Shown piece after piece: positions 9,185 to 64,000 of a stretch of 64,000 nucleotides of DNA. The DNA is taken from the NCBI GenBank assembly GCA_949152475.1, contig OX424566.1, positions 12,857,177 through 12,921,176 on the forward strand, given 5' to 3'. The position numbers were made by a program, and so were the translations under genes. The number at the start of each line of letters is the position of its first letter. The first letter of the stretch is position 1. This DNA is from Terebella lapidaria (Eukaryota; Annelida; Polychaeta; Terebellida; Terebellidae). The notes under the pieces are model-generated. The model did no database searches. It saw only the letters and a list, made by a program, of their open reading frames with translations, and had not been told where the DNA came from.

Positions 9185-9890
9185 AAGGTTACCGGACAAT
9201 ATATATTTTAGATATTGGCCTTTTGTCCAGTGACTTTGAAAATAAGGTCATTGGTCAATTCAAGGTCACGAGAATATTGAACATATATCATTTCTAGTAT
9301 GTCCACAATTGATTCCTAAGCTGTAAAGTCGATAATAAGTGAGATATTAGCCATTTTGTGATGTGACATTGAAAATAAGGTCAAAGGTCAAATTCAAGGT
9401 CATCAAAATATTCGGACTATATCATTTCCTATATGTGAACAATTGATTCCTAAGCTGTAAAGTCGATAATAAGCGAGATATTAGCCATTTTGTGCTTTGA
9501 ACTTGAAAATAAGGTCAAATTCAAGGTCATCATAATATTCGGACTATATCATTTCCAATATGTGCATAATTGATTCCTAAGCTGTAAGGTCGATAATAAG
9601 CGAGATATTAGTCATTTTCCGCTTTGACCTTGAAAATGAGGTCAAAGGTCAAATTCAAGGACATCATTAATATTAGTACTATATCATTTCCTATATGTGC
9701 AAATTTGATTCCTAAGCTGTAAAGTTGATAATAAGCGAGATATTAGCCATTTTGTGCTCCGACCTTGAAAATCAGGTCAAAGGTCAAATTCAAGGTCATC
9801 ACAATAATCAGCATATATCATTTCATATGTGTCCACAATTGATCCCTAGTCTCTAATCTCAATATTAAGTGAGATATTAGGCATAATATG
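9185..9890. repeat. ~134 bp satellite, five to six units, with AGGTCA direct repeats
   Basis: The word cctaagctgtaaagtcga recurs at 9315, 9449, 9576 and 9711, with a degenerate copy at 9844. Spacings are 134, 127, 135 and 133. Each unit also holds gaaaataaggtcaaa, ttcaaggtcat and atatcatttcctatatgtg. Three units contain a perfect AGGTCA-A-AGGTCA element (9378-9390, 9639-9651, 9774-9786), the spacing bound in vitro by DR1-type nuclear receptors such as HNF4 or RXR heterodimers. Function is not implied by the match. Confidence 0.85.
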
Positions 9891-11716: not shown

Positions 11717-14700
11717 TCAGTTGTCCAACTTTTTTGGCAACTGGTTAACGATCATGCTTTCCAGACACTCGAAGACCGTGTGAGGGTCCTGATCGCCATT
11801 GACGTGTTGTCCGCATGCGTAGAAGTCTTGTATTTCCTCCGTATACGCATGGTAACTGGACAGCCTCTGGCGGATGGATTCCTCTGTGTCTTTGGGGTTG
11901 GCTTCTAGCCGCTCTCGGACATCCAGCGTTCGCGGTGGGTTGTACAACATGTGGTAGCGATCGCCGGCGATCGGGTCCGTGGCTCTCGGCATTAGACGCT
12001 CAAAGACGGAGTCATTTGGCACTTGCAGGAAGAAAACTCTGCGACAGTAGTGAATAATCATATCAAACTCATTATACATGTATTCAGTTTCCAAAGATTA
12101 TTCATATATTGCAAATAAGGATTTTTAGCTGCTAAATTTTAGAACTAATGCTTCAGAATGACTTTATATTTAGTTAGTATCAAACCGGCAAACTCCAGTA
12201 AAATTATCATTAGATACATTTCGAAATTTCACGTCAGTGGTCAAAAAAACTTTGCCATACATGTTGAGACCTTGCAGTACCTGTTAGGCGCTAGACCTGC
12301 CCCGGACAGCTGCTCGGCCTGTTCACGTGTGAGGGGATACCCATGTAACACCCAGCCCCGGGTAGAGCAATCCAGACTCGTCAGACGGTCCTTCAGGATG
12401 TTCAACACCAGGGCGTCCGGTACTAAACAGTTGCGAGGTTATACAGGTGATAATATTATTTTGGAACGTGCTGATAATCCAGTGATGTTGTACTTTAATT
12501 TGAGTGATTTTTGTTGAATCAACGTGTATAGAATATATCTTTCACTTTGTTCTGTATAGTTTATCACTGTACAAAGCTATTTTGGTATAAGTGTTATGCC
12601 AATAAGATTTACACATCAATGTAATTATACTGGGGTAAATTGCAGAATGTAGTCCGTTTCTCACCCATGCTGCCTTTCTCAACATAAGGTTTACATGCTT
12701 GTCCTGACTTCGTCTCATCGGCTATTGCCTGCTTGATCAACTGTCCCATTGAAACTGTTCACATAAAAGTTTTTTTACCCAAGTTGAAAATAAATCCTTC
12801 ATTAAATATCTGAACTTCATAACTGTGACATCATAAACTACTGCAAGAATCAGTTTGACTATATATAAAATAGCTCACAAAGCCAACAGAAATTCACCAA
12901 AGGAAACTTGGATCAAGTTTTGTATTTCAGTCAATACACCCACCGTTGACAATGTTGTACTTGTTTGCGAGAAGCGTAGCTTGTACGCCCTTGCCGCTGC
13001 CTGTCGGCCCGCAGAGTACAATCCTTGGAGTGTGGGGGGCGATGGAGCGTGGCTTGGAGCTGAGGAACGTCATCACTGAATGACAAAACATAAAGGTTGC
13101 CATTTGCCCTTGGAATATTATTCAGTATACATCAGTTGTGTGTGTGGACTTCTGAGATAAAGAAAATTTTTGCTAATACTGAGAACTGAACCATCCAGAA
13201 ACATCTACCAGAAATTACTAAAGAAAAGTACAATTTTAACTGTGAATAAATCTGTTCGAAATAGTTATAATGAAATAGGATTCACAAAAAATACACAATG
13301 CCATGTAAAACAGTGAAGAACCTTGTGAGAAGACATCAGCTTTAGGCTGGTCAGCGTTGATGATTTTGTGGACCTTATCGTAACACTTGAGAATGCCGTC
13401 GATGTGTCGGTGATAAAGAATCAGTTGCTCGATCATCTCGTCCTCCGACGTTCCTGGAGCCTCTTGAAGTCTGGCCGCTACATCGGTGGCGGTCGGGTTA
13501 TCAAACGTCACGTGGTAGACGTCTGTGTGTGAGAAGCAGAATTTGAATGCTTTTTGATTGCATCAGGTGGTTTCAATTGATTGTTCAAATGGGGTGGTTT
13601 CCAACGAGTCTTGAAGAAGTTCAGTAAATGTATAATATGACATTCTCTTCAATGTTAAAGAAGTTGCTAAAAGATTCAACTCGGAGATACAAAGATTGCA
13701 ACAAAAGTCTAAAAACCTTACACTTATTGATGTATTTACATACCTCCCGTTTTGGGATCTATCCTCTTCCCGACGGCTCTCTCAATCAGCACTGTGTCTG
13801 GGGCCTCGAGGAGTACTGCGTATATGACAATGGAATTTCAATTGATATGAATGTGTGTCCGAGCAAGTAATAAGCTTGCAAGAAACAAAAATATATGCAC
13901 TGAAACTATGCACTGAACAGTATCAAATTATTTATATACATACAAATTTACTGACCAAGGTGTTTACAGGAAATGCCACAGGACTGCAGAGCGATTGCCT
14001 GCTCCCTCGTTTGAGGAAACCCATCCATGACCCAGCCTTTTTTCACACAGTCAAAGAGAGTCATCCTGTTCTGTATGAGCTTGACCCACAGATCTGTCGA
14101 TATTTCCTGGCCAGCTTTTTGCAGGGCCAAGGCTTCATTTTTCAAGGCTGTATCGGCCTCTTCAATGATTGAATCTTTGTGAAGATGTGCAGCTCGAAGC
14201 TTGCCAGCAACCATTTTGGCGATACTTCGCTTCCCGGATGCAGGCGGCCCCAGTACCATAATTTGCGGAACTGGTACAAAGATAATTATGAAAAATCAGG
14301 AATGATGATGAATATTTTTTAATAATTTATTCACATTCATGCCAGTCAATTCAGTGTATTACAATTTGGTATGCGATAATTATTCTCCTGACTCTAAACA
14401 GTGATAGCTCTGAACGGGTTTTCAAAACAAGAGTTTTGCAAGGTTCTTTAATGTATTGTAATTAATTCATTTAATTAATTTACCATCATCGTTGTCTTTC
14501 TTGAGTTGTTCTATGAGAAATGTCAGAGGGTCTACTGGTTTGTTGATAAGCAGCTGCTCCATCAGCCTCTGTGAACAAATTTGTATTTTTAGTACGAGCT
14601 GTCAGTCCTAACTTGGCCGCATCCCTAACTTGGCCATATTTTGTTACTTTTGTTGTAACATCTCCAGATATTTTGTTTCTTCTAATAAAGCAGATTGTTA

Positions 14701-22732: not shown

Positions 22733-24234
22733 CCTGGATTCCACCTGGGACCCTTTTATACCGCTGCCAGTATTTACTGATCGCCATTATGCCAAATTCT
22801 TGTTTGTGGTTGTGTGTGTCTCTCTCTGGACTTGTCAGATCTGTTGAGTTACGGAATTGTGATCTCAAGTAGATGAATTGTGTGGGGATGGGTATAATAT
22901 ATTTTTTCTGCGAAACAAGCAGAGGTGCATCGCTGATTGCCAAAAATACCACACTTGTATTTATATACAAACGGTATTACCGGTAATTACCCCATTGCCA
23001 ACTGTGATATGCTTTTTATAGTGTTTTTATCATACGTAAATATAGCTTGGTGGAGCAGTCCAAACACACGTGTGAGTGATGTGCAAGTGTTTTGTGCAAT
23101 ATAGAACAAAAACATTACCTTTAACCGCTCTTGCGGAACTAGTCTGTATATCGGTAAGCATATCCATTGCACATGTACTGGACTAGAAAAGTGCCTTCGT
23201 CTATAATCAGTATTGAATTAGGACGTGAACTGTGAGAGAAAATCCTATTCTGAAGTAGGATATATCATTTGTGTCTGTGCAGTATTATCACAGTGATATC
23301 AATGATAAACTTTCATTGTCTAGGACTTTATCTATACAAGAATTGTGCTGCAATGCTGGATACAATATTTATCACTATACATGTATGATATAATTATATA
23401 ATATACTGTTGAGTCATATTGCTTGATAGGATATTTTGTGTGTTTGTATATAATATATTTATTAATATGACATGTATATTTATGTGGTATTTCACTCGAT
23501 GCCGACAGTCTATAATAAAGTGACTGAAAGTCCTTGGGGAAGTGGTATGTAAAAATCTCCTGGAAGTCAAACGGCAATTCCATGTCAAATTTCACATCAA
23601 ACTTCTATTGCAAAAATTTAAAAACTTGGCAATCTACTCCAATGTTTAGATTTTGTGACAATTTTTTGCATTAGAAATGTGAAATTTTGTAGAAAATTGC
23701 CATTTGACTTCCAAATAAAGTATGTAAAGTTACGACACAATATCATTTGACATCGCAATAATGTGCAAAAATCAGTTTAAAGGAGTCGGCAAAATAGTTG
23801 ATCCATATTTGTATTGATGAGATATTGACATATGACACCCAGACTGTATTTGATATGATCTGATGTTTATTGAATGCCCATATGTATCCAAACACCATGT
23901 TATTTAGTTTAATCAGGGTTGCATTTTGCTATGGATAATTTCAAGGGAAGATCTACAGAGCAAAACACAACACGTTTCCCATTTTAACAGAATACACATT
24001 ATAGCAGACCATATACGCAAAAGTAGCAAAAACACTTATGACAATAGATAGTTTTAGATAATATTCCATAATGCTGTTAATGCATGCTGGAAAAAGTTCA
24101 TATCATAAAATTTTATTAGCGATACAAGGTCAAAATATCATTATAGTACCTGTATAGGGGTAAGAAAGTTATCAATAACTGAGTGTATTCGCGTCGATTC
24201 ATCTCGGTTCACGGTTCAGCTGGAGTCTCCCTGT
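22733..24234. other. CFAP77-Pif-like intergenic, convergent 3' ends
   Basis: Holds the presumed 3' UTRs of both convergent genes: AATAAA on the plus strand at 23514-23519 and on the minus strand at 24112-24117. Around 23563-23715 there is a short inverted repeat (aagtcaaacggcaatt and aattgccatttgactt), related to repeats at 17.1 and 52.1 kb. No exon seen. Confidence 0.5.
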
Positions 24235-27200
24235 TTAGTTATTTTCGAACAGGTCCAGAACTTCAGCGCTAGATAGAACTCGCTTGTAGATACGCAACTA
24301 CAATAGTAACAGAAATGGGGAACTTGAGAGTACATTATTCTCGGTAAGAACTTGTTTGTTTGTTCGGTAAGAGTTTGAGAAGATGTACAGTTATAAAATG
24401 CTTGAAAAAAATCTTTAGATAACATCCTTCCATATTCAATTTATCACTCTGAGAGAAAAGTTGGAGTGGAAATAAGGATTTTCTGACCTCATCCATGAAG
24501 CCTGTGAAATAGCCAGCAGCCAGATTGGGACCTTCATGGCCAATGTTCATCGGACACTGGCGGTTCTCAATAAAACCTGTGAGAAAGTTTACAGAAGACA
24601 TAGAATATTTGAATACAGTATCTCACCACTTCGCTAATTAGGACCCAATAAATATGTAAGTATGGCCTTGCTCTGCTTGTCAAGGCCACTTGATTTTCCA
24701 ATATGCATTCAATAAATCAAACTGAAGTAGCAGTGGCAAGCTGACCTTGGGCGGCCATCCCGGAGCCCTGGGCCACACCGTTGAGGTACATGACCAGGGT
24801 GCTGCCGTCGTAGACCATAGCCACGTGCTCCCACTCAGCTGCTCGCACCTGAACAAGGGTGAATACAGATGTATGGAAACTGTTTATTCTAATAATTAAC
24901 TTTTTAAGGGATCAGTAAATGTTTGTGATTATGATTGATGTGAACATTGTCCAAGTTTGCAATACAAAAATGTACATGTATATGAGGTTTTTTTTCATTT
25001 TTTAAAATGGATTTTGATGTTTTCTATCTTGTGACATCACTTGTAAAACGTATATATGACAGATATTGAACAGAATTCTAGAAATTGCACGGGCTAGCAT
25101 CAGAAACCCACAAGAGAATCGTACGAGACAGTTTCATGGGTTTCCGCTAGCGTGTATATATATTTACCGCGATCTGAGCCGTGGAGAGTATGGCGGCGCC
25201 GTCAGCCGTGTCCAGTTTGCCGCTGGCCACGTCACCCTCGCCCGTGTACACGTCAAAGCTGGGCCCCTGGATACAGTCTCCGTTGTTAACGAGTCCGCCT
25301 AGACCGCTCGTGTCACCCTCACGACGGAACCACAGAGCTACAGACCAGGTGGTGACGGCCTGGCCCGCGAACCTACAGTTCAGAAGGGGGGAATAATGGA
25401 TTCTGATTATGATCTACATGTACATCTGTCACATGATCAAATATACATGTATACTATGGTCTCCTGTCACGGAGGGTGTATCCTGAAAATCAACAAATTC
25501 TGAACAGCCACATCTTGTCAACAAATCTAATCTGTACCCTTACTGTCCAACCGGCCGTAGCCTATCACTGACCAGTTGTTGAGGAAGCCGACCGCCAGCC
25601 TGCTGCCGCCATCGAAGAACGCGCACTTTCCCCTGGTGACGTCATCGACCAGCTGGGGAGACCCGTACACGTCAGAGAGCGCACGGTTACATGTCTTGTC
25701 ATTGAAGTCGTCATCGAAGGGGAAGTATAGGAGCATGTCTGACTCACAGGGCTCGGCCGGGACTGCATTGGGTGAATGAAAAATGAATACATTGGGTACT
25801 AGTTGAATTGAGCAGTGTATCCAGGTGGCGATGTAACATTGTAGTGAGGAGGACGTTGAAGTGAGATGGATGTTGTAATTAGGTGGGTGTTGTAGCGAGG
25901 TGGATGTTGTAGTGAGATGGACGTTGTAGCGAGCTTAAATGTACGTATATAAAGGCAAAATTCAGCTGGGGAACTGGAGTTACTGGACGAATAAACCGGC
26001 ATTGCCCAACTCAATTCGAATGCTTTTCCCTGTCTCTACAGCCGTTCATAGGCTATATACACTCATCAATTTAATATATATAACGGAAAGACGCTGCATG
26101 TTGTAACTTACCAATTCGGTCGCAGGCGCAGATCGCCTCGTTCCAGACCAAGCTCCCAGGACAGATTCCGATCTGGAGCCAGCCTTGGTAGAGGAACGCC
26201 TGGGGGTTGACGGGGTCCGCCTTGTACGGGCACACTGTAGGAGACCGGTTAGGGGCGAAATTGTAATATCGTGACGGAGTTACTCCCGTTTGTGTGACGC
26301 GGCTCACACACGAATTGAGAGGCATGGCTTGGCGTTTTACACCAATTATTGTGGCATAATCTTTGGAGTAACCCATTTGCGAGCTTATGTTGTAGGGCTA
26401 GTTCAGCTGGGGTTTGCATGGTACACTCACCCATTGTGGGCGGGGCGTTGGTGGTTTTCGGTTCGAGGGTCGGGGCGTGGATGGCACAGCCTGTCGTGGC
26501 AGGGGCCCAGTCACAGGTCTGGTACTGCATGCTCCAGTACAGGCCATTGGCGCAGCACATGTGCGTGTGGGTGTAGCCACTGGCTCTCTGCAAAACAACA
26601 ACGTGAACTCATCTATCACAATTTCTAAGTCTCTAAATTATATCCTTGGCTAAATTATATTATTATTCTCGACCAATGATCTGTATAGATTCAACTATAC
26701 ATGTACCATTAGACTTTTTCAAAACTCACGTTTCAACCATTTTTATTTGGAATAAATTAATTCAACATATCATTTTGGATACACTAGCACCATTGCATGG
26801 CGGGAATGAATACCTTCTCGCAGATGTAGTAGCACTGGCAGTTGTCTCCATCCAAGATGTAGCCGACATCGTCGTGGTACTCGCACTGAGTGCAGTCCGG
26901 GACGAACGGCGCTACAAGATAACATATACAGTAGAACTCCAGCTAGCGGACACCCGCGAATAACAACCCCTGTCTATACCGACCACTATAACGTACCTGG
27001 CGTGGTGGTTGTCGTGGTAGGGGGACTAGTGGTTGTAGTTGTGGTAGTCGTTGAGGTAGTTGTCGTGGAAGCCACGCAGGGCTGCACGTTGCACGTTTCC
27101 GTCTCGGTTCGCGTGAACTGGCTCACAATGTTCCCGTCGCTATCGATACGGTAACAAGTCTGGGAGTGGGCTCGGGATCCCCCACCGCAGGGCACGCTAC

Positions 27201-30200
27201 AGTCCGTCCACTCCTCCCAGTCATCACACTCCACCGTGTCCACTGTATAGGGTATTATTAATGAAGTAGGTATCAATAACACAGATGCAATATTCCATCC
27301 TAGGAAGGCCTACTGTTCGGTAGAACCTACGTCCACTGTTATAAATCAGCTTCCTTTTCCAATTCGATTCCATTAACCTACATGTAGGCATACAGTATGT
27401 ACACACGCAGGTCTAAATAGCGTTCCCCAAGCAAAGATTGGAATAATCATAATTTTTTTTTTTTCAAAGTTACTTACCGATCTCGCACGTCTCGTCAATG
27501 ATGTTGTTAGTGATAGTAGACAAGGCCTCGTAATCTTGGATGTGGAACACGAACTTATCGTCCGGGTCGTCACCAATACCATTCAGCTCGTCCATGTCGA
27601 TATTACCCACGCCTGCATGAGGGGAACGGGATGGGAATTGATGTACATGACACGATCAGTTTATACGCATAATGATAGGTTGAATTAGATTTGATATTAT
27701 AACATATAACTTTTTGACGAATGTCTACTCTTAAGGATGCAAAAAAGTTTCGAGATCTAAGCGGAAATTATATTAAATAATTTCATACATTCGGCGCAAA
27801 CATTAAAATAGTCTAAAGGGATTCAGCGTCGTCAAATTACCGTACTCAGTAACTCCTTACTCAGTGTCCCCTGGAACAACAAAAACTCACCGATGGCAAA
27901 CACTGTCATGCCCTCGTCACGACAGAGGTCGGCTTCCGGGATGGTGTTCTCCGCGAGGATGTTGGACTCGCCGTCCGTAATCACCACGACGATCTTCTGC
28001 ACGCCGGCGCGGCCGTGGGTCAGCAGCATCTCCCGGACTGCTCTGATCGCGTCAGGGGTGTTAGTGGCCCCAGCCATGTACGGCAGCTCCCAGATGCGGT
28101 CGTGAAGCGAAGACGTGTCCACGTACTGGCCTTGATGTGGAAGGAGTGGGGGGTGTTCATTGAGAGGTATAGGAGTTGGAAAAATCGCATTCGTTCTGCC
28201 CTGACATTTTTTTTTATGATTACATATGATGTATTTTTTTAGGATGTATATGCATTGCCATCGGGATGTGACACCCAAGATTGACTCAATCATTTGATTA
28301 CTTATAATCTTATGATCACAAACTGATTACGAAGATTATAACCTGGTTGGTAAATATCGCAAAACGGCCAACTGTACGTACGTCGATTAGTCGGAAACAT
28401 GTAAAGAAATTGCTGACGTGCGTAGGCCTATAGTGTTTCATAATTGGTCAACTCCCTATGCTCGAAATTCACTTGAAATCTCAACAGCCAATCAAATAAA
28501 CCATCTCAAATCAGACGCGCGCTGATTGGTGCATCTTCCTCTCGCCAATCCACCAATCAGCGCACGTGGTGACTCTGCAAACACACCAAGGACGATGTCC
28601 GCGTGCACCTCGGTGGCGTAGCTCACCACGCCCACCCACGTCTCATCCGGCGTCACCTGGAAACCGCTTGTGACGTCAATCAGGAACTGCTTTGTGCGGT
28701 ACCAGTTGAGCTCGTCCAGACTGCCAGAGGAGTCGATGACGAAGGCAAGGTCGGCGCGACCGCATCCAGCAACTGTCAACGGAATTTGGAGGGACGTTTT
28801 GTAATATGGAGAGTTTCGACTGATGTGAAGATGAAAACAAATGAATGTCATTCGGGGTCCAAATCGAGATTCGCAGTAACCGAGCTCATAACATTAGGCC
28901 TACTACTAGTAGTTGGTGCGTAAAATAATAATGTCCTTATGGTCTATGGTCACGATACTTCGTGTATCTACTTGAGAGGCTATTTTGCACGACGGTTGAT
29001 TGGTTGCTATGGTTACCTGGGATACAGCTGTGTGTGTGAGGAGTGATTACTTGGGTTACCTGGAGGGGGGGGGGGGGGGTACAGCTATGGGTGTGTGAGG
29101 GAGTGGTTGTTATGGTTTGCCAGGATTACAACTGTGACTGTGAGAGATGTTTGCTATGGTCACCGGGGAACAGCTGTGGGTATGTGAGGGGACTGGTTGC
29201 TATGGTTACCTGGGGTACAACTATGGGTGTGGCAGGCGATGGTCTCACTCCCCGGCCCCAGCAGACTGCTGGGCCCTCGCTCCCTGGTACGACTCCCGGT
29301 ATCACACGTCTCCGTACACTCAGTCCAGTCCTGCCATTGGTTCTCGTCTGAAGAACGTGATCAGTTCTTCATCATAATTTTAGTAAAGAACACTTACATA
29401 CAATGTAAGTTAATATATCAATTTCGTCATGCACATTAAATAATATATAGTTCAGAATCAAATCGCGTTACTTGAAACATCCCTACTACTAATATTGACT
29501 GTTCATAGTGGCCTCGATCCAGACTACAGCAGATTGCCCTCAATTTGGCGCATTTTTTTATTCCAAACATAATCCGACTGAATTATGTTCGGGAAAAAAG
29601 TTGAACGTCGTTAAAAAAGTTACTATATATATATGGAGATAACGACCAAGCCTTATCGAACACCCACCGATACAGCTGAACCTGTTACAGCTGGCCATCT
29701 GGGAAGAACACTTGTCGCTGTAGCTGTTAGGGTCAGTCTCGTCAAGGAGACAGCCCAGGTGTCTGGCCTGCATGCCCGTGGGTCCACAGGGGTCGCTACA
29801 CGGCTCCCAGGCGCTCCATTCCGTGTCTGACAGGGCAGGAGTGGACGGGTTCATTTTTCAATACCGGTAGACTAAATTACTAGTATTAATTACAGCTTTG
29901 TTCTAATAATATGAATTTTTCAACATTTGTTAACAATAAAAATTTATTTTTAAAAAGTTACAATAATCATTATTAATCGGCTACTAATGTTTAGTGGGCA
30001 TTTTCAATACCAGCTTGGATAAACAAGAAGTCATACTAGTCGATTCACAGGAACAACTGTGATTTGTTCTCCAATTTACTCTGCATGGTAGATACATGTA
30101 CAAGTGGTTGATAAAGGCACTTAGTAACAATGAGAAGGGATTGCTCGTTACTTACCCCAGAGCTTGTCGCGCTTGGCTCTATGGTGTGCGGGACTCGCCC

Positions 30201-30252
30201 AGGTCAGCGCCACAGAGGCCACAAGGGCGAGGGTGAGTTGGAATGTCAGCAT
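24235..30252 (-). CDS. Pif-like secreted matrix protein: TSP1-TSP1-vWA-TSP1-ChtBD-LamG, complete
   Basis: Fifteen coding exons, all in phase, 742 residues: 30156-30252, 29668-29826, 29210-29347, 28587-28772, 27891-28130, 27478-27612, 26997-27242, 26814-26911, 26431-26587, 26112-26234, 25573-25762, 25168-25372, 24746-24848, 24488-24576, 24235-24297. Signal peptide MLTFQLTLALVASVALTWAS, then a furin-type RAKR. TSP1 domains lie at about 33-85 (EWSAWEPCSDPCG), 86-131 (WQDWTECTETC) and 319-370. The vWA domain (132-318) keeps its metal site: DSSGS, the Thr in GATNT, and ITDG. A Thr-rich linker (375-400) follows. Two Cys-rich peritrophin/chitin-binding-like units lie at 401-526, and a LamG fold fills 527-742, ending RIYKRVLSSAEVLDLFENN. 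vWA, chitin-binding and LamG in this order is the layout of Pif, a nacre matrix protein binding chitin and calcium carbonate; the TSP1 domains are extra. A biomineral or cuticle matrix role is inference. Confidence 0.92.
25842..25932. repeat. 17 bp minisatellite, about five units, intronic
   Basis: Units such as gtgagatggatgttgta and gcgaggtggatgttgta recur head to tail with few changes. Lies in the intron between the chitin-binding and LamG exons of the Pif-like gene. Confidence 0.85.
26912..26996 (-). mobile_element. 85 bp intron made largely of a pogo/Tigger-like transposon end
   Basis: Read on the plus strand, ta followed by cagtagaactccagctag and cggacaccc is the typical terminus of pogo/Tigger-type elements (TA target, CAGTRGAACCTC-like end). 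It starts at 26929 and similarity runs to the splice donor at 26996. Only about 17 bases of the 85 bp intron, including the acceptor, lie outside it. No second terminus is present. Confidence 0.55.
28996..29235. repeat. ~44 bp minisatellite built from the exon 3 end and its splice donor
   Basis: The block ggttgctatggttacctgggg-tacaactatgggtgtg recurs with starts of ggtt/ggtc at 29011, 29054, 29114, 29158 and 29204. The last copy is the real 3' end and donor of the second TSP1 exon of the Pif-like gene (exon end 29210). One spacing is longer because of a G15 run at 29065-29079. Three of the four extra copies keep a GT at the donor position. Confidence 0.85.
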
Positions 30253-30676
30253 CTAGAAAAAACATATATGGTGTAAAAGATATACATAGAACTGTATTGC
30301 AGTATATGCATACGTCGAGTACAGTAACTGTGCAAATTCAGTGCAAATAATATCTGAGAATGCCAATGCAGATATTCAAGCAGTCGTATCTGTCAGATAA
30401 CCAAATTAGCAGGATTAATGTGAAACCAGTATGCAATGATTAGAATGACAAATGTTTTTACGTAAATGCTTTGATTTGAATATTATGGAATAAGCTTATA
30501 CATATTAAACTATATAATAAGTTAGAACGGGGAACATGTTATCGCTAGATTGTGAAATATTATAAAATGAGAAAAAAATATAAGCTAACTAAAATACATA
30601 CTTATATTGAAAATATTTAGGCCTATATTGACTTGAATCTGAAATAAACGACATAAAGTTGATTTTGTCAGTTTAC

Positions 30677-30757
30677 CTTGGATTAGCAGAATATTCCTCC
30701 AAACTCCAAGCCCAGTAAAACATGAAATGCCCCAGTAGATTAAAACCTGGGGCCTTG
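30677..30757 (-). other. Non-coding 5' exon of the Pif-like gene (inferred)
   Basis: A good donor (CCAAG|gtaaac) ends at 30677. The upstream limit is set about 28 bp below the TATA box, so the start near 30757 is an estimate. The next acceptor (ttttttctag) at 30253 is followed directly by the ATG, so the whole 5' leader is exon 1. Confidence 0.6.
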
Positions 30758-30784
30758 AAGAATAATCCCAAGTAGACCCAGCCT

Positions 30785-30831
30785 CTTTTATAAGCCCGCC
30801 AAGCATCGTACATTTCCAGCGCTCTGATTGG
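30785..30831 (-). promoter_or_regulatory. TATA and CCAAT boxes of the Pif-like gene
   Basis: On the minus strand, CCAAT (30827-30831, context CAGCCAATCAGAGC) is followed 35 bp later by TATAAAAG (30785-30792, in GGCTTATAAAAGAGG). Both are at the usual distances from each other and from the proposed first exon. A TATA promoter fits a strongly expressed, tissue-specific secreted protein. Confidence 0.75.
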
Positions 30832-30859: not shown

Positions 30860-32654
30860 ATTTGGGTGGGCGAGTTTAACCTACTTTTTGTCAGACGTTG
30901 CGAATATAAGATTACAAACTATATTTTGTCAAGGTTGTGTGCTGCACGCAAAGGGTTTAAAAACCTCTTTCATGTTAGATTTTCTGATTTATGTTTGTCT
31001 TTCATATTTGTCATTTGCAAGGGAGTTTGATCTTGAAGTGTTCTCCAAGACGTGATGTTTTATCTAATTTCAAGTATTTCGTTGCCCTCTTGGGGTATTT
31101 CTTCGAAAATGGAATATATTGAGTGCCGTGTTTACAGCTCTAATTCTGACGAATTTTGCTTTCCCGTTACTGATTCGAATTATGTTTGGAATGAATGTGC
31201 ATCAATGTGCAGGACAATCTGTACCTGCCCGTGAAGAAAGAATAAAAAAGTCAGGAATGTACATTGTATTAAGTGATATTTGGGCGTCTACCTGATTCAT
31301 TAATATTCAAAACGTGTTTTCAAAGTTAAATATAAAACAATGCACACACGACAAATCGTGACGCTGGTCAAACAAAATGTGATCGACTTTGTGTTTAGCC
31401 AGGTACCATGTGATGTATACACATGTGTCTGATTGTAGATAAAACGTTGTTGGTAGACTATAGATTACATACTTTACTGGTTATGTTAGTATAGTTTGAC
31501 CAGCGTGATATTGAAATAATTTTTTAAAATTATTTCCTAAATATGCATTTAAAATAATGCATCTCGTGTTGTAAAGACAATATATTATTTGCAGTAAAAA
31601 AAGGAAATTATAATTGTGTGCACACATATTAGTTTGTACGAATGTTTGCACAAGTTTAGGTATATTACAGAGTAATTATCTGCATTTTCTTGATTTTCAA
31701 TTTTTGCAATCCTTAAAGATCGAATTATCAACCATGATATCTTCTGTTCCAAATTAATTTCTTTTGCTCAGATCCTGTGATCCCTTAGATGCAATAATGG
31801 GCTACAGTGGAGTACAATACCAAAATTCTTTTTTTTCTACTCAATACTATAACAACTATACCAAAATTCTTTTTTTTACTTAATACTATAACAACTTTAC
31901 GTCACAATGCCCCGGATAAAACGAAAAGTGGAGTCCAAACACGTCTTTTCTCCTTATGTTCACATCGAATATATTGTTTTGAAAAAAAAAATTGATCCGA
32001 TCTGTCAACAAATTCGAAGTCAACACAGACAACGCCGGTTGTTCATGGCCACACCCTTCTCAAGAACCGGTAACGTTTAAAGCTACTTTTACTGGAGGGG
32101 TAAGGGCGGACTCGTAACGGGGGGGGGGGGGGGGGGGGGGTATTACCAGGTAGTTCCAGACTTAGAATCGAATTGTGTGCTTGAAAATAAACATCACGTT
32201 TACAATTTTCGATGAAAATATTGATATTTGGCCGTAATATATTCTACTTTTTCCTCTCAGAATACAAAGATGGATGTCTTAAGTGAACTATTGTTTTTTT
32301 CTTTCTGTTTGTTCTATTTTTGCGAGGAAGACCCGGGCATATTAATTTGTCACGCAACATCAATATACCAATTTGGTTGCTGTAGTGCTCTTTTCATACA
32401 GATCGATTATGATTGGGGATGCTAAATTCAAAAATAAATATTATATACAAGTAGTGGATATTTTTGTTCAAATATCACAAATAGAACTTCCACATAGCAA
32501 CACACACATAACTAGTTTCAAACGAATTTTGGGACCAAAATTCATGTATCTTATAATTTCTCTAGCACAAGACCTAATAATATGGCAGATGATGGCAATT
32601 TTTGCTGGTACCATTGACACAAATACTCAACACAATTTTCGCCATAGGTTTGCG
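30860..32654. other. Intergenic, with a G22 run
   Basis: No exon supported. A run of 22 G lies at 32119-32140. Around 31830-31880 the words ccaaaattctttttttt and aatactataacaact are duplicated 53 bp apart. Otherwise AT-rich sequence without recognisable content. Confidence 0.5.
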
Positions 32655-33971
32655 GATATACTGTCCCATATATCCAGATAGGATTACAGATATACTGTCC
32701 CATATATCCAGATAGGATTACAGATATACTGTCCCATATATCCAGATAGGATTACAGATATACTGTCCCATATATCCAGATAGGATTACAGATATACTGT
32801 CCCATATATCCAGATAGGATTACAGATATACTGTCCCATATATCCAGATAGGATTACAGATATACTGTCCCATATATCCAGATAGGATTACAGATATACT
32901 GTCCCATATATCCAGATAGGATTACAGATATACTGTCCCATATATCCAGATAGGATTACAGATATACTGTCCCATATATCCAGATAGGATTACAGATATA
33001 CTGTCCCATATATCCAGATAGGATTACAGATATACTGTCGAATATATCCAGATAGGATTACAGATATACTGTCCCATATATCCAGATAGGATTACAGATA
33101 TACTGTCCCATATATCCAGATAGGATTACAGATATACTGTCCCATATATCCAGATAGGATTACAGATATACTGTCCCATATATCCAGATAGGATTACAGA
33201 TATACTGTCCCATATATCCAGATAGGATTACAGATATACTGTCCCATATATCCAGATAGGATTACAGATATACTGTCCCATATATCCAGATAGGATTACA
33301 GATATACTGTCCCATATATCCAGATAGGATTACAGATATACTGTCCCATATATCCAGATAGGATTACAGATATACTGTCCCATATATCCAGATAGGATTA
33401 CAGATATACTGTCCCATATATCCAGATAGGATTACAGATATTCTGTCCCATATATCCAGATAGGATTACAGATATACTGTCCCATATATCCAGATAGGAT
33501 TACAGATATACTGTCCCATATATCCAGATAGGATTACAGATATACTGTCCCATATATCCAGATAGGATTACAGATATACTGTCCCATATATCCAGATAGG
33601 ATTACAGATATACTGTCCCATATATCCAGATAGGATTACAGATATACTGTCCCATATATCCAGATAGGATTACAGATATACTGTCCCATATATCCAGATA
33701 GGATTACAGATATACTGTCCCATATATCCAGATAGGATTACAGATATACTGTCCCATATATCCAGATAGGATTACAGATATACTGTCCCATATATCCAGA
33801 TAGGATTACAGATATACTGTCCCATATATCCAGATAGGATTACAGATGTACTGTCCCATATATCCAGATAGGATTACAGATATACTGTCCCATATATCCA
33901 GATAGGATTACAGATATACTGTCCCATATATCCAGATAGGATTACAGATATACTGTCCCATATATCCAGAT
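32655..33971. repeat. 34 bp satellite, about 39 near-identical copies
   Basis: The unit gatatactgtcccatatat + ccagataggattaca is repeated head to tail for 1,317 bp. I found only three variant units (near 33036, 33438 and 33845), so the array is young or is kept homogeneous. The unit length is not a multiple of three and stop codons arise in the array, so it does not code. Each unit has an AGATA and a GGATTA word. Confidence 0.98.
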
Positions 33972-35411: not shown

Positions 35412-38032
35412 TTACACAGTCGCGGCTGACAAATCTTCCACTTTTCTCGCCAACGACACTTTGTTTATTTTCCTGAGTGACTTCACTAGCTGGTGTACGT
35501 TGCCATGGCGATGAAAAACGCGCCACTTTAGCAACGACTGCCACGCTTGTTCCTCTGTCGTCTGGTCTTTGCGCAAACACGTGGTGTAGACCTTGTCAAT
35601 GTCGGTCGTTCTTTTGTCCGAGTCGCGAGGCGGCCGGAAAGGTAATTCTTGATATAAATCCTTCCATGACCATCCTATCGACAACGATACAAAGCGACAG
35701 GCCTCTCCCAGTTCATCTATAACAAGAAAATAAATAGTAACGGATATAAATTTACGTGTCGAAATAGTTGAGGATATTGGAACAAGGTATAGTAGGGTAA
35801 CATAGTCATTCAATTGGATTGGATAAAATGTGTATTTTAATCTCCGGCTGGTTTTAATTAAATTCTGAAATACGCATAACACATAATGTGATATATTTAT
35901 CAGTGATCATAACGTAGTCTTATGTAATAGAACACAAAAATGAACACACACATGCACAACAAATGCAAGTTTGAACATAATATCAACTTAAAATGTGATA
36001 TGAGTTTTGTGTTTTCCATGCAAATTCGAATGTGACTGGTGTAGTACTATCATACACAAAGACACCGTTCACTGACCGACGTTCACTCAGCAATTGTTCC
36101 CTCTTTCAAAAAAGGGAAAATTTCTTTTTACATTGGCTACATGTATATTGATAATTGATTCATTTTCCAATGTTCTGCATCCATGATTAGATGTGAATGA
36201 TGATGAAATTAATTTCAGTAATTATTTACCACATTAACTGACCGTACCATTACATTAGTTGCTGATATCGGGTACTGTTAATTTCAATTCCAATAATTTT
36301 ACCACATAAACTGTCAATATAACTTCAACTGTCGATATATCTGCATCACACTAACCTCTAGTAATTGCGCCTAGTCTCTCATAGAATATCTTCCGCAGGG
36401 TTGACGGTGACAACTTGACGTCCCTGATCTTCTTGGCTGCCGCAATTTTGGCCTCTTTTGCCAGCAGCTCCTGTCGTTTGGCGCCCACTGATATCTCCTG
36501 TTCCGACAGCCTCTCGTCCACAGCAGACACGGCGCTGTCCCACTGTTCTCGCTCTTTCTGCAGTGAATGAATCTGTTCGTCTAGCTCCTCCGATGACTTG
36601 TCAAACCGCTGTAGTTGACGCTTGAAGCTCTCGTGTCGTTCCTCCAAACGTGCGATGTCCGCTTTGAGCGTCTCCACTTTCTTGAAGAGAACGTCGAGGT
36701 ACTTCGGCGAGTTCGATGTTCTATTCTTGATGTTTTCTTCCGTCTCGCAGAGGGTTGAGTAGAGGCTGTTGATTTCTTCCTGGGTACGGTCGGCTCTTTC
36801 CTTCAGCTGTTCGTTGTTCGTGCCGGATTTTCTCTTGTCTCTGTGGGCCTGCTCCAGTTTCTGAATTACTTTTTCTCGTGCAATCTGAAAATATGAAAAT
36901 TTACTTGATAATGCAAATTATATGGTTTATAATGTGTATTCAATTGCAAATTACATAGCAGTATATCTGCATTTTCATATATGTGAAAGAAGTCTACGTA
37001 TAAACATTATTCATATGCATTCAACAACAAATTTTCATGAAAGAATTAGGCCGATCCTATTGACAAACAACTCACCATTTTCCTCTGTTTATTCTGTTCG
37101 ATATCGTCAACTTTACGACGCAGTTTCTTCAGGTCGTCAAGCAGTTTGGTCCGTTGCATGTTACTGGCGATAATTTCGTCCCACAACTTTACAGCATATT
37201 TTCGATCATCCTGCGTCCAGTGACGGAGTATTTCACAGGTGTCTGCCAAGTGAGCACACACCCTACCCATCAACTCCTCAACCTTCGTCATTTCCTTCAA
37301 GTAGCCATCCACGAAAGGCGTTCTCAACGCCCAAAACTCTTCTAGACTTTCTTCCACGGAGTTCAGTGTCGAGTCAATTGACATATCATAGTTATCTATC
37401 CTCTCCTGGTATTCAACAACGGACTTTATTTCTTCTGGTGTTTGTGATGCCTCTTTCTGAAAGCTTCGGAAGTATTTATTGGCGTGGTTTTCCGTGAAAT
37501 TCTTTAGTCTCTGTTTTGAATGAGATGCTAACTCTTGGAATCTAATTCCGAGGGAACAGTAAGCTTCCAGTTGGTCATATTCCAGCTTCTTCTTACAATT
37601 GGGATCAGACTTGTATTCGTTGTAAATCCGTTTGAAATCGCGATAAGTCTCTACTTCCAAGTGATTGACTTTCATGTGATCCAGAATTTCTTTGGCTGAA
37701 GCTTGATACTTATCGCCACTGACGCTGGGTCCCTGTTTCGAATACACAGTAAAATTCTTGATGTCCCTTGTCACCTGTGATACAACGACCATTGCTCCAC
37801 GGTGCTCACCCTCAAGTGACGCGGGTGGCGTTGGGCGTTGCCTTGGCGACACAGGGCTTCCCGCCGCGGTCTTGACACCAGCATTGGTTTCCAGGGAAAC
37901 CGTGGACCCATAAATGCGATTGGGCTTTGCTGGGCGTCGCTTGGTCAACAGTTTGTGTACTGGTGGAAAGCTAGACGCCCGGGGCTGATTTTGCCGACCC
38001 CGGTTCCTTGCTATTGTCGACTTCGATGCCAT
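35412..38032 (-). CDS. Coiled-coil protein with C-terminal Death domain, complete
   Basis: Three exons in phase: 37076-38032, 36356-36884, 35412-35716, giving 596 residues. The ATG at 38030-38032 opens a basic, Pro-rich disordered N-terminus (to about residue 90). Residues about 100-490 are almost wholly helical and charged; 310-480 is a clear coiled coil (for example LEERHESFKRQLQRFDKSSEELDEQ). The last exon, residues about 497-590, reads as a Death domain: GEACRFVSLSIGWSWKDLY, then DIDKVY, AWQSLLKWR, HGNVHQLVKSLRKINKVSLARK. No signal peptide, membrane segment or enzymatic domain. Death domains self-associate in apoptosis and innate immune signalling; here the coiled coil would supply oligomerisation, which is inference. 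I do not know a named orthologue. Confidence 0.88.
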
Positions 38033-41000
38033 TTTAGTGTATTATTTGATGGACCATCATCTTCATATCATGATCGAGTATCAACTGTTTTATCCACCAT
38101 TCTGTTATCACACACTATGATATTCATTTACAATTCCATTACCCTTGGTTTGATATGAATTTCTGTTATTGTTTCCAGTTCTAGAATGTATTGAGAAAGT
38201 GCAGAACATACATGAAAACAAGTTAGTCTAGCTATGTGTTCGACAACCATGGCTATCAAGTTATTGATTTCCCTTGTTGTGAGTTCTGTCTTTTCGTCAT
38301 ATGTATGTATGCACATGCACCCTCTTACCAAAGTCCTGGATACTTGATCACATATAACTGGTATCGATCGAATTCCAATAGTCGATAAATGACGGCAAAA
38401 CTGTTTATTTACTTTTCTTGAGTGAATAACTCCGATCAAATCTATCAGCGGTGATCCAATACAAAAGATTGCTCCTATTCCGAACTATCCCCCCATTGAA
38501 ATTGGTGTATCGTGCAATTTTCTGGGCTTGATATAACATTGATGTTGACACACAAGTCATTCTCACTGTACGCTAGATGAACGAATGATCATCAAACTTA
38601 TGCCAGCCAAATAATGAATCCTACCGGGGGTCGGGAATCTGGGTGCTAGGAAACCAGACAAGTCACGAGCCCACTTAATGAGAGGATGAGACAGGTCATG
38701 AAGTGATATACGTGTCGGCGAAAATATTGGTGCATTCACCAGTATTATTCAATAATAAAGCACTATGATGTACCAAACCAGAATTGCATACAACAATATT
38801 ATGAAATTAATGAATATCGTTTAGAATCACCGCGGAGATAAATGCATTGGTTTCTGTAACGCTGGGGTTGAAAACTGCTAGCCTAGGTATATATACGTGT
38901 AGTTGCTAGTAAAATCAATATAGTGCCTGATTGATTTGATTGATGACTTGATTATTGTGAATGGCACAGTATTGTATTGTTACTGACTTACAGTGAGGGA
39001 TTAATCAACAAAATTCTGTTGAGCCCTTTTCAAAATTTAATGTCTGCATCAACATTAACCGGATTAAGCATCGGATCCTTAAATTTGGACGGGGTGTGTA
39101 TCTTGAATTGACCGAGGGTTAATTTAGCCGTTACGTTACTGCATGTGTTGGGGTTTGGTTAATTTCCCAAGAGATAAGAATCAATAAAAGAAGACGAGGT
39201 ATTAAATTTGATCGAACTAGTTTTCGTGTCGAATTGGCCACTGGGGTTCATGCTAATCATTAACGAAGCTTTCACGTTTCACGACTCGATCTCTTCCGCA
39301 TTTCCATTGATAGTTCATGGAGTGTTGGTCAGCGGATAATTAATGGAGATCATGCATCTAGATGAACAAACTGTGTCCAATTCATGCACAATAGACATCC
39401 TACCTTGAAATCATAGGATCCCTCTATGTTTTTTTCTTGTTTTATTAATTCTGATAAATAACACCTCTGTTTGTAGATGGTTATAAACCTCACATATCAT
39501 GCGTTGATACAACCTGGCTATAATTCTGTCTTTTGAATTCATTCTTTCCACGAGAGATTTATGAGGTTTTTCTGGAGAAACAGTCATACAACAAGGTTAT
39601 AGTTGTGATTGCATGAATAAGCATTAATTTAAATTATTGCAGAAGAAAAGAAAATCATCATGGAGAACCTAAAAAAAACAACCACGGAGCATTTCCTCAG
39701 AAAATAGAATAACTTAGTACTACCCTACCAGTATGACACGCGTTGGCGTTTGAAATCCAAAATGTTCCTTACAGGTACCTGTCATTTCAAACCAATGCAA
39801 AATCAAGCAATGTGTGTATTCTTGCTGTGAGGTGAGAGTATAATTATGGTGTGATTAATGAGCTATAGTGTATTGAGTATGACGGTTATACACATGTAAT
39901 TACTGTGGTCATATATCATATTTCACTTCAGATTTCATCAGAGTAGGCCATCACAGTAGCTTGGACCTCATATCGAGCTCAAACATAGAGTGAATGGCTG
40001 TTACAGTATTTGACCTGCTTACTAGCGTCCAGACTCAGAAAAAAGAAATTGAACGTTCAATCGGGTGTCAAGTGCTTTCTTTATAATCTGGTCGCCAGAT
40101 AAGATCCCTTTGCATCCCTTGGAATTGTTCATGAAAAAATATTCCAAAGAGTCATTGATGTGTCTTGTAAACAAAAGAAGTTGTTATCATGGTCACCTCG
40201 TAGACTGCAGGATTCGTTCGCCGGCCATTTTGAATTACGTTATGAGGCTCGTGAAAATTAAAATTTGTTTAAACTTTGGAATAAAATCCCACAGAGATCT
40301 GTGACCCCACTTAAATTCCATGTGACTTTAGCATGGTAATTTCAATGGTATGGTTATTTTTAAACATTAATACATATTTAAAACCGGAAATAAATTAAAA
40401 GTGGCAAATAAATTACATCATAAGGAGAATATTAGCCTATATGCATAGACCTATGTGGTTCCTGTGTCATCCAAGTGTAGTGTATTTTGTCTTTCATTCT
40501 ATTAATAAAAGTTATATTGGTTTACCGGTTTTTGTAGTGACATTTGATTCTATATTTAAGGAGGTTATTTTCAATACCGAGATAGCCAGCTCGACCTGAA
40601 GCTGTCAACTCACATAAACGGTGAGATTGTAGATTCCCTATCAGCAGAACACTCATGACAGGTGTGTCATAATAGTCGGCCACGCCCCCCCCCCCCCCTT
40701 CACAATCTTCCAAAAATCATATTTTTTAGTTAGTTTAAATGATACTTTGGAAAATTAGAAATGATTTAGGCCTAGATGTATAGGATCTTCGTCGAAAATG
40801 TCAAAATCTGATTCGGGCTATTTGCCTATCTCAGCCTATCTCAGCCTCTACTGCACTGCAGGAAGACATGGAAGAGATATAGGCCTATAGTTTTTGATGT
40901 GTATGTACACAAGTTATTGATTATGAAGCATCCAATTGTGGAATTACTGAAAAGGCCTACCTAATGTGACTATTGGTTGCCTCATAATTCAAAATGGCTA

Positions 41001-41319: not shown

Positions 41320-44300
41320 ATGGAACTGTCGATCCGAAAAAGGGAGTTCATATCGGTTGAATATCCCGGTGTTGTAAAGAACACGGACAAAATGTTGGAA
41401 TCGCTTGGTGGTGAAAGCACGATCAACCAGGTACCGACATGTTTACATGAGCGATAATACAAGAATGTAGCCGTATTAAACCTGGCATAATCACATTCAT
41501 TACACCCTGGCACTCCATCTGTCCATGTCGCTCCAGGACAGATTTCACTAATTCCTTCGGCCATACAAAACAATGATAAAAAGCCAAAATTCAAGTCTCC
41601 ATAGCTCCGTCCCAGAACAAGATGAACCTAAGCAGCTTATATACAAAGCTAGCCAATTCATAGGTAAAGTTGCTTCACTCTGGGGTGGATGGCCCGTGGG
41701 TCGGGCCATCCACCCCAGAGTGAAGTAACTTTACCTAGCCAATTCATTTCTTCATCTCACTATGTAGTAAGGAAAATATAGGTTGATAAATTTGATTTTT
41801 TTTACAGCTCGAATTCTGAGGGTACCCCCTTAAAATGACAGATTTTCATGCCTGACAACCCATGTTTATCGTTCGTGGTCCGAGCCGTTCTGTGCGTGCT
41901 GTTGCTTGGTTCCCGCCTACAGCTTGGTACTAGTCCATGCAAAAAAACGGTCGCCGAACGGCCTGAAAACCCGGGATTTTCGTGTGGTCTTGAAACTGTT
42001 TGTGTGCAATGCCAACCAGCTCTGGTCAACAACCAGCCATAGCAAAATATCCCCCACCATTCTGCGGGGGATCAAGGGCATCCCCCGTTTTCAAAATAGG
42101 GAATTCTCTGACTGTAACGGATATGACGCAATATGATTGGTGTAGTCAGGCCTCCATGTCTGCTTCGCGCTCGATGAGTGGAACACCTGGGTCTAGATGT
42201 TACTGTGCATTAACGTAAATGAAGTACTAGACCCAGGTGCCACCACTCGAGCGCAAAGAGAGTCACGGCATTTGGGTCTAGGTTTAATTTTCATCTACAT
42301 CATGATAATGTTTATTTTTTTACAGATATGAGGTATAAAATGAATGAATTGTAATCCCTTGCTTTGTCTTATTATACTCTGATAGCCCATCAACTTGCGC
42401 TCCAACTGATATCACATATACAGTGGTCCCCCTCAGATGAGACCCCCCTCAAGAAAGACTTCCCCCTCTGTAAAGACTTTTTCTTGTGGCGCTACAATGA
42501 CTTTAACATGTAAATGAACCCCTCTAATAAGACATCCCCTCAGATAAGACCTTAATTTTGTGGCAGAAGGGTAGGTCTTATCTGAGGGGGACCACTGTAG
42601 TTACATGATTTAATTTATTTATTCAGGTCTACTAGGAAAACAAATATTATCCAAATCATTAGCCAATTTGTCTCAATTTTCAATATTAAAAAATGCACCC
42701 GTTGTGTTGAAATATCCAGGTGTTCAACACTCCCGGCCAGCGCTTGGAGCTCCACTTCCGACCCACGGACCTCTACAGTAAAGCTGCCTGTGCCAACAGG
42801 CATTCCGCAACTAGCCTCGTGTTACGCATCAGACGCCGGCGACGGAAAAAGTCGAGTGGGATCGATGTCGGTGTGCAGCGGGAAGAAGATAGTGAAGAGT
42901 ATGAGTATTCCGGAGAAATCACTGGGACGATTGAAAGCACCTACAAATTTCAGAGTAAGTTCGTGCCAATTTATATGAATGATAGTTCAAACATATGAGT
43001 AGTCCGTACATTTGGCATATGCAGTGGCTGACATCGCAAATTTTTTTACGGAATACAGATAGTATGCGCATCATATTTTCAATGGAACCCTCAATAAAGC
43101 AGGTTTCATTTCTGTGTAAGCTTAATAATTCAACTGACATTTGTAAATTCCAGGTCTCGCAGATTTCCAGTACCTTCCGATGTGCCGAAAGCCAAACACA
43201 GAGACATATGAGCCACTGCTTCCTAAAATGATCTTTACCAAGGTGGAGAAACCATCGTGGATCAACCAAGACATGCCGCTGTTTCTGCCACCGAGCCTTT
43301 TCTCAAGAATTGACAACCCCTCTGACTACTACTACAGAGATGGACCATATAAATTCTTGGACGACTCCAAGGCTCAAAACCCCAATGTTATATCTGTGTG
43401 TGAGTAGTAAAAGCCATAACATGTGTGACTGAACTGAATGCACACTTGTATATACTGGGTATGCATCATGTACTGTGCATGTGAATGTACTTCGTATACG
43501 ATGGTAGTTCAGGATGAAATTGCCATGAAGTCAAGTTTCGTACTCAGAAAAGTTTTATTCCTAGACAGGTTCTAGTCAATACAACGTAAGAAAATTTTTT
43601 TGGAGAGTTCAAAATCGAACGTTTTGTCTAACAACTTGAATGAAATAATATAGTGAAGTTGTTTGATCCCAACTCCTCTGCATCGGGGAAAATGAAAATT
43701 GTGAAGGGGAACTTAATTATGTTGAATTGACTCTGCTTAAACAGTTAAATCAGTTCTCAAACAGGAAAGACTGTTGTAACATGAAACCGTTGCCTCCTCT
43801 CTACTAACAGTTCGACAGCGCCGGCCGCACTTTACACAGATCGTGTATAACGAGGATTGGCACGTTCCTGATGGTCCCATGCCACAGGCCATCGCTAAAG
43901 TGGAGTCCAAACAGAACAGCAAGGAGGAACTTAGAATGCTTAGAGAGGTAATAGGGCAGTCAGCGAGTTAGGATACAATTCACGGTTTGTTGTAGGGAAA
44001 TGTATGTAATTTTGAGAAATCCACCAGTGATTTGCATCGAGACTGCACTTGTATATATACATGTAGCTTGAACTAGAAAATAATTAGGAATTTCAATCAG
44101 TAACTGCAGCTCATAATGTTTGTGATCATGCTAATATGTATGTGTACTACACTTTAAAGTGTGTTGATCTTCATGGATCTAAGGAATGATCCCAACCTTC
44201 AATTGTACGAACTGCAAGCTAGCTGTAAAAACTGGACACTACACCATGTACACCCCCCTCACTGTTCAATTACAGTTGTTTGAGAAGCGCCCCGTCTGGT

Positions 44301-63199: not shown

Positions 63200-64000
63200 C
63201 AGATTCATTCGTTTATTATAGTGACAAGAGCAAGGATATATACAATGTAAACAAACATAATAAAACCATACGCTCCCAGCCTCACAGGGCTTATTTGTCA
63301 CTATGAACATAGTACATGCAGAGTGGCAAAATGGCAGAGAATAAAATTATTAAGGTACAGCACTCAACCTTTCCTGTCTGAGTTTATATGCATTGGATAT
63401 GAATGAAGCTAAATATTTATCACTAGACTTTACTATCACAATTAGTTTTTCAGAATCATTAAATGAGTATAGATTTTCAACCAGTTTTTGTACATTGCCA
63501 AACAGGATGGAGCGTAAACTTTCATACAAAGGACATTTAATAAGGAAATGTAACTCGTCTTCTATTTCATTAGCATTACAAAGTTGGCATATTCTTTCAT
63601 TAATTGGAACACATGTATAACAACCGGTTTCTATTCTCAGGGGTAAAATACCTAATCGGAATTGTGCTAGTGAAGATCTTAAAGTTTTACTCAAATGGTA
63701 CTTAACATAACTCTCAGGGGACAAATTTTGTTTAAATAATACATATGTGCGCAGTTTGGGCTTGTTTCGAGTAGTATTAAACCATTCTTCCTCACATACA
63801 TTGAACAGTTTATGTTGAATTAATCTCACATCTATACAAGAACCACTTTCAAACGACTCACTCAGACCCAACAAAGAACAAATATCCTTAATCTCACTCG
63901 ACCAGTTTTGAAAACAATTTAAGTAATCATACATAAATATGTTTTGCGAGTCTATCATCACACATAACACACAATCTATTCCAAAAACGTAACATACAAC
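63200..64000 (-). mobile_element. LINE retrotransposon, C-terminal ORF2 end and 3' UTR
   Basis: A minus-strand frame from 63970 to 63350 (206 residues, open towards the window edge) ends in a zf-RVT-type domain: LAQFRLGILPLRIETG, then ERICQLCNANEIEDELHFL and KCPLYESLR. This is the region downstream of the reverse transcriptase in non-LTR elements of the Jockey/CR1-like groups. The 3' UTR continues to about 63200 and includes a minus-strand AATAAA. The reverse transcriptase itself would lie beyond 64 kb. The frame is intact over 600 bp, so the copy is fairly young. Confidence 0.85.

Follow-up and report, generated by a model that had tools for sequence, protein, structure and literature searches.

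A putative Pif-like matrix protein gene with three TSP1 modules in the annelid Terebella lapidaria

We analyzed a stretch of 64,000 nucleotides from Terebella lapidaria (contig OX424566.1 of assembly GCA_949152475.1, positions 12,857,177 to 12,921,176; hereafter the window, numbered from its first letter). Its minus strand holds a gene for a 742-residue protein in which the modules follow one another in the order TSP1, TSP1, VWA, TSP1, threonine (Thr) linker, CBM_14, CBM_14-like unit and LamG; a Pfam search of the joined protein supports this order for the TSP1, VWA, CBM_14 and LamG modules. We consider it probable that the product of this single gene is a Pif-like protein that is secreted into the extracellular matrix and acts there as a cross-linker.

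Gene model and domain anatomy

We rebuilt the gene at GT-AG sites with compatible phases, which gave 15 coding exons that begin with the ATG at 30252 and end with the final stop-codon base at 24235. The joined exons comprise 2229 coding bases including the stop and are read in one frame without internal stops. All 14 coding introns are of the GT..AG type and measure 85 to 456 bases, and the GC content is 0.598 in the coding part (0.755 at third codon positions, GC3) versus 0.384 in the introns. When 15 random minus-strand segments of matched lengths were chained from positions 1-23000 of the window, none of 20,000 chains had an open frame. At exon 12 we preferred the donor GTCAGT to GTTGGA, a judgement of small uncertainty that changes just a few residues. 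An earlier note on this DNA had described a 742-residue frame over fifteen exons, and our rebuilding agrees with it in length, in the number of exons and in the start coordinate; the end coordinate that the note gave, 30831, is the edge of a CCAAT motif described below.

The domain anatomy is a direct observation on this joined frame, made with Pfam and residue motifs. Exon 2 (30156..30252; all exons are on the minus strand) carries the start codon, a signal-peptide-like stretch judged by eye, and a furin-type site, RAKR, at residues 25-28. Because RAKR follows the hydrophobic stretch, a signal peptide with a short propeptide is likely at the N-terminus. TSP1-1 occupies exon 3 (29668..29826; residues 33-85) and TSP1-2 occupies exon 4 (29210..29347; residues 86-131). 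The VWA domain is spread over exon 5 (28587..28772; first part, with DSSGS at residues 145-149), exon 6 (27891..28130; middle part, with GATNT and TDGES) and exon 7 (27478..27612; end). Exon 8 (26997..27242) encodes TSP1-3, with a Pfam match at residues 326-374, followed by the Thr linker. Chitin-binding unit 1, the CBM_14 domain, begins in exon 9 (26814..26911) and is completed in exon 10 (26431..26587), which adds a linker. Most of the CBM_14-like unit 2 lies in exon 11 (26112..26234), with its last cysteine in exon 12 (25573..25762), where the LamG region starts. LamG continues through exons 13 (25168..25372), 14 (24746..24848) and 15 (24488..24576) to exon 16 (24235..24297), which holds the C-terminus and the stop codon.

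The Pfam matches differ in strength. A single VWA stretch was found at residues 139-309 (E 1.6e-38), Laminin_G_3 matched residues 597-735 without a large insert (E 5e-20), and TSP_1 matched three stretches (E 3.6e-14). TSP1-1 alone scored above the TSP1_ADAMTS cut-off (27.2 vs 23.8) and 0.1 bit short of that of PF00090 (21.5 vs 21.6). Unit 1 (residues 411-467) reached 19.6 bits in the full protein, where the CBM_14 cut-off is 22.1, and 25.6 bits (E 1.4e-5) when searched alone; unit 2 alone stayed under that cut-off at 14.0 bits (E 0.055). This search on the joined exons was the check that the earlier note had named for its domain order, and the order was reproduced. Of its two chitin-binding-like units, unit 1 passes the cut-off when searched alone, and unit 2 is a weaker, CBM_14-like unit. 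Pfam detected no Sushi domain in the protein, and NCBIfam gave one match, at the LamG end, far under its cut-off (24.8 of 410 bits).

The DSSGS, GATNT and TDGES motifs retained in the VWA domain are, we assume, its MIDAS elements. All three TSP1 modules contain WxxW, presumably a C-mannosylation motif, and CxxTC, which we take to be of the O-fucose type, occurs in TSP1-2 alone. TSP1-2 has four cysteines, and TSP1-1 and TSP1-3 have six each. A motif scan of the protein returned no N-glycosylation sequon. Residues 30-742 are acidic, with an isoelectric point of 4.24 and 101 Asp and Glu residues versus 38 Lys and Arg. Net charges of the TSP1 modules are -5, -5 and -8, despite an R-rich strand, SRTRERG, in TSP1-2. 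Because all three are net acidic, we marked down the earlier suggestion that they bind sulfated glycans, and now regard it as disfavoured.

Two adjacent genes, one for a TSP1-VWA protein and one for a CBM_14-LamG protein, could in principle have been merged in our model, and proteins with CB and ConA/LG domains that lack VWA do exist (abalone CLC_303; LamG3 as used in PMC10543319). We hold such a fusion to be highly unlikely, because a single frame runs across 14 of 14 junctions and because the exon that unites TSP1-3 with the Thr linker (26997-27242) is separated from CBM_14 by an intron of 85 bases, which leaves little space for a terminator and a promoter. Moreover, the model contains just one signal-like exon, and an abalone protein has been listed with both halves (PMC6003135).

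Likeness to Pif-type and other matrix proteins

That abalone protein, idb_25730 (Comp68740_c0_seq1_1) from Haliotis laevigata nacre, has the nearest described module set and is listed as "VWA, TSP1, chitin-bd_II (2x), ConA_like; G/T" (PMC6003135). We found each of these modules here (VWA, TSP1, two chitin-binding units and a ConA-like domain), with the second chitin-binding unit under the Pfam cut-off. From VWA on, the module set is the same, in a comparison by description, as the listing may not run from N- to C-terminus. The abalone entry differs in having one TSP1 rather than three, and G/T repeats rather than a short Thr linker. It is also listed without a signal peptide, so its N-terminus may be incomplete. 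A second relative by listed modules is Tcr_684094 from the shell proteome of Tridacna crocea (PMC8217771), which combines TSP1, PF01607 and VWA. Like the protein here it brings TSP1, CBM_14 and VWA together, and it has a signal peptide and was recovered from shell; unlike it, the Tridacna entry has a predicted transmembrane segment and no listed LamG or ConA-like domain.

The earlier note had placed TSP1 outside the known layout. This did not hold up, as VWA with TSP1 was already listed in abalone nacre (PMC6003135) and Tridacna shell (PMC8217771). In addition, a tubeworm tube proteome is enriched in LamG, VWA, ChtBD2 and TSP1 domains (PMC8476170). From the abalone, Tridacna and tubeworm data we conclude that TSP1 is not foreign to the matrix toolkit. 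Because a very similar module set is already listed for the abalone nacre protein, we regard the protein here as a variant and not as a new kind of protein. The two TSP1 modules ahead of VWA may be the sole part that is undescribed; no description of them was found in the literature searched, largely open-access main texts. The accessible parts of PMC7333891, PMC8700984 and PMC10969987 contained no further VWA-TSP1-CB protein.

The layout also agrees with what has been defined as ancestral Pif, a protein with VWA, CB and LG domains (PMC10543319). Here VWA, chitin-binding and a complete LG domain follow in the same order in one protein, with CBM_14 over its cut-off when searched alone; the difference lies in three extra TSP1 modules, two before VWA and one after it. 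The Pif-like layout proposed earlier is thus in keeping with the published VWA-CB-LG order and, through its Thr linker, with the poly-Thr that PifN carries between VWA and CB (PMC11291548).

Mollusc Pif/BMSP proteins have been split into eight subfamilies in a paper whose main text contains neither TSP nor thrombospondin (PMC11291548). Its clade criterion is a BLASTP match of the VWA to the PfuPif VWA below 1e-10, followed by a tree; the likeness that we describe would be one of module layout, not of tree placement. A CBM_14 or CBM_14-like domain lies downstream of VWA in 38 of 50 Pif/BMSP members (PMC11291548), and the same holds here. Both units fall in the CBM_14-like range of that paper, which draws the line for a full CBM_14 at 1e-5 and so leaves unit 1 (1.4e-5) just outside. 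Between VWA and CB, PifCCP carries Sushi repeats and PifN carries poly-Thr, and a complete LG is reported for PfuPifN and PfuPifCCP (PMC11291548). The protein here resembles both in having added material at this place. Unlike them, its inserted module is TSP1, no Sushi/CCP repeats occur there, and two more TSP1 modules precede VWA. BMSP has tandem VWA domains, four in bivalves and a single one in some other classes (PMC11291548); we found one VWA stretch and no tandem array. The Asp-rich insert between LG halves that marks Pif in the strict sense (PfuPif, the Pif80 part) was not found.

The name LamG3 has been used in two ways. In PMC9635652 it denotes a protein with one VWA, three ChtBd and one LamG, and "TSP" occurs 0 times in the main text. 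The protein here likewise has one VWA, chitin-binding units and one LamG, but differs in having one CBM_14 and one weak unit in place of three ChtBd, and in its TSP1 modules. In PMC10543319 LamG3 is applied to CB and LG proteins without VWA, a definition that the VWA domain here (E 1.6e-38) does not fit.

Intron phases were consistent with the assembly of this protein from modules. Phase 1 is found in ten of the 14 coding introns (binomial tail 0.0017 for a background of 0.3) and in every one of the seven that separate modules (those after exons 2, 3, 4, 7, 8, 10 and 11), a pattern in line with exon shuffling. A bivalve Pif gene is reported to have gained SCR repeats through shuffling (PMC10543319). 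Symmetric 1-1 cassettes are formed by exons 3 (TSP1-1), 4 (TSP1-2), 8 (TSP1-3 with the Thr linker) and 11 (most of chitin-binding unit 2). We predict that dropping exons 3 and 4 would keep the frame and leave the same modules as are listed for idb_25730 from abalone. Each of the TSP1 exons 3, 4 and 8 is a phase 1-1 cassette that keeps the frame, so that splicing could swap plain ancestral-Pif and TSP1-bearing forms. A tentative idea, which we consider unlikely, is that abalone, giant clam and Terebella lapidaria share an unrecognised TSP1-bearing Pif branch in which splicing toggles between these forms and thereby tunes the partners of the chitin scaffold.

Searches for relatives and copies added little. 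No second copy of the gene was found in the window, where the best tblastn match outside the gene had an E of 3.6. An exon 6 scan of viral contigs (7 pattern matches) and an exon 13 scan of bacterial and archaeal genomes (252 pattern matches) yielded 0 confirmed relatives each; these are not invertebrate genomes, and both results say little.

Proposed role and competing explanations

Our account of secretion, processing, binding partners and tissue is drawn by analogy with the named families and with earlier studies of Pif. The signal peptide would direct the protein into the secretory path, and probable trimming at RAKR would let the mature chain begin just before TSP1-1. The C-terminal half, with CBM_14, the CBM_14-like unit and a complete LamG, would hold the protein to chitin or to matrix sugars akin to it. 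A stalk, formed by the Thr-rich linker and probably modified, would space the two halves. In the N-terminal half, the VWA domain with its intact metal-site motifs and the acidic TSP1 modules would recruit matrix proteins and perhaps calcium; in Pinctada, a pull-down with the Pif VWA recovers Pif80, nacrein and two protease inhibitors (PMC11291548). The net effect would be to tie soluble matrix proteins to the chitin scaffold of a shell, cuticle or similar layer.

Several observations weigh against this assignment. We compared the protein with the molluscan LG segments described in PMC11291548. For the N-terminal segment, 424 of 1000 shuffles scored at least as well and the top local alignment fell in the VWA domain; with the search limited to the region, 280 of 5000 shuffles did as well, which is chance level. 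The C-terminal segment gave a weak signal (26 of 1000 shuffles; 94 of 5000 in the restricted region). No Pif80-like Asp-rich part was found, and the 360 bases 3' of the stop contain no acidic frame. VWA-CB proteins have been placed in Mollusca, Nemertea, Phoronida and Brachiopoda (PMC7747718), and PMC10543319 reports VWA with CB for the chordates Branchiostoma and Ciona as well, so that this combination does not assure a lophotrochozoan origin. According to the same paper, expression in the mantle is not high for many Pif and LamG3 genes, and the proteomes of brachiopod shells and tubeworm tubes have no reported Pif. The matches to solved chains described below, led by collagen VI and MIC2, bear nothing on shell use.

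These published expression and proteome data make it quite possible that the protein works outside a shell. The main rival is a Pif-like (VWA-CB-LG) paralogue that works outside mineralised or shell structures, in the gut peritrophic lining, mucus, haemolymph or a wound matrix, with VWA and TSP1 serving adhesion. It gains from the absence of an acidic mineral-binding tail, from the suggestion that biomineralisation may not have been the original function (PMC10543319), and from the view that VWA-CB proteins likely arose at least two times, some outside the Pif/BMSP family (PMC11291548). The nearest described module set, however, comes from nacre (PMC6003135), and the Tridacna TSP1-VWA-CB protein comes from shell (PMC8217771). 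We rate this explanation as somewhat unlikely.

The solved chains raise another explanation, namely a cell-adhesion or defence-type protein in which VWA-TSP1 has the main function and the C-terminal lectin half binds microbial or mucus glycans. Among the best 60 of 120 matches, collagen VI and MIC2 lead, the VWA matches include integrin I domains, and MIC2 is the best match that extends from VWA into TSP1 (query 129-348, E 1.6e-27). As in MIC2/TRAP-type proteins, VWA is followed directly by TSP1 here. Those proteins belong to other organisms and functions, and the match leaves out the chitin-binding and LamG parts, so the likeness is one of modules. The C-terminal half best matched extracellular arabinanases (E 8e-5), in line with the Laminin_G_3 model, which belongs to the lectin/glucanase superfamily; for CBM_14 unit 1, a chitinase chain gave a weak alignment (E 0.0039). 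Any VWA domain would be expected to give VWA matches this strong, however, no membrane anchor is apparent by eye, and CBM_14 and the Pif-like order are left unexplained. We therefore view an adhesion or defence protein as quite improbable, and retain the secreted Pif-like matrix cross-linker as the preferred explanation.

Flanking motifs, neighbouring sequence and significance

Upstream of the coding exons, also on the minus strand, we located a putative CCAAT box (30827..30831) 33 bases ahead of a putative TATA box, CTTATAAAAG (30785..30794), each recognised as a motif. From the spacing to TATA and a donor site, GTAAAC, we propose a candidate non-coding exon 1 (30677..30763), the start of which is assumed to lie ~30 bases past the TATA motif. 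An upstream ATG in it would open a 17-codon out-of-frame reading frame that overlaps the main start codon. Downstream, a polyadenylation-type motif, AATAAA, lies at 24112..24117 on the same strand. Each strand of the window has one CCAAT-TATA pair, versus ~0.77 expected per strand from 60 first-order Markov sequences. We thus rejected the promoter motifs as strong evidence; the pair is no rarer than chance, and just its place ahead of the candidate exon is suggestive. We regard the earlier description of the gene as complete with promoter as a plausible suggestion.

Pfam was also run on 20 further open reading frames of the window, and 7 scored above a curated cut-off: four matched Sushi, and one each matched WAP, ADK and Tau95. 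The WAP and four Sushi repeats lie in frames at 54344-58543 on the minus strand that probably form one gene. They are ~23 kb from the Pif-like gene on the same strand, and a link to that gene is not indicated. Sushi-bearing relatives of Pif are known in bivalves. The ADK frame (13948-14295, minus strand; 44.9 bits) is accompanied by a second ADK piece just under the cut-off (11717-12097, minus strand; 25.2 vs 26.8), and the frames at 11717-14295 probably belong to an AK8-type adenylate kinase gene. The Tau95 match, to a TFIIIC subunit, lies at 44183-44509 on the plus strand (E 1.6e-26). In human, the AK8 and GTF3C5 genes are near neighbours, and the presence of ADK and Tau95 frames in one window may reflect old synteny.

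The minus strand at 35412-38041 has a death-domain match that narrowly misses its cut-off (22.5 vs 22.6 bits), beside two long same-strand frames with weak, sub-cut-off matches of the coiled-coil type. The window also contains a near-perfect minisatellite (32644-33971; 34-base unit, 39.1 copies, 99% matches) and a tandem repeat (9210-9884; 134-base unit, 5.1 copies) with AAGGTCAAAGGTCA-type motifs, which are common in mollusc genomes. Exact scans for the 34-base unit in bacterial and archaeal genomes and for 28 bases of the 134-base unit in viral contigs gave no match, and these results say little, as neither collection covers invertebrates. An open frame at 63350-64000 on the minus strand had 0 Pfam matches above cut-off; by eye it resembles the C-terminal part of the polyprotein of a non-LTR retrotransposon. 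Neither Rfam at gathering scores nor a tRNA scan gave a match in the window.

Pif-like proteins underpin arguments on the evolution of the shell matrix by module shuffling. In the gene described here, most modules lie between phase-1 introns and TSP1 stands on both sides of VWA, making shuffling visible at the level of exons. The gene connects scattered proteome entries from abalone and giant clam with a Pif/BMSP classification that lacks TSP1 in its main text (PMC11291548). It leaves the view of what Pif-like proteins are unchanged, and offers a concrete target for tests of their evolution and splicing.

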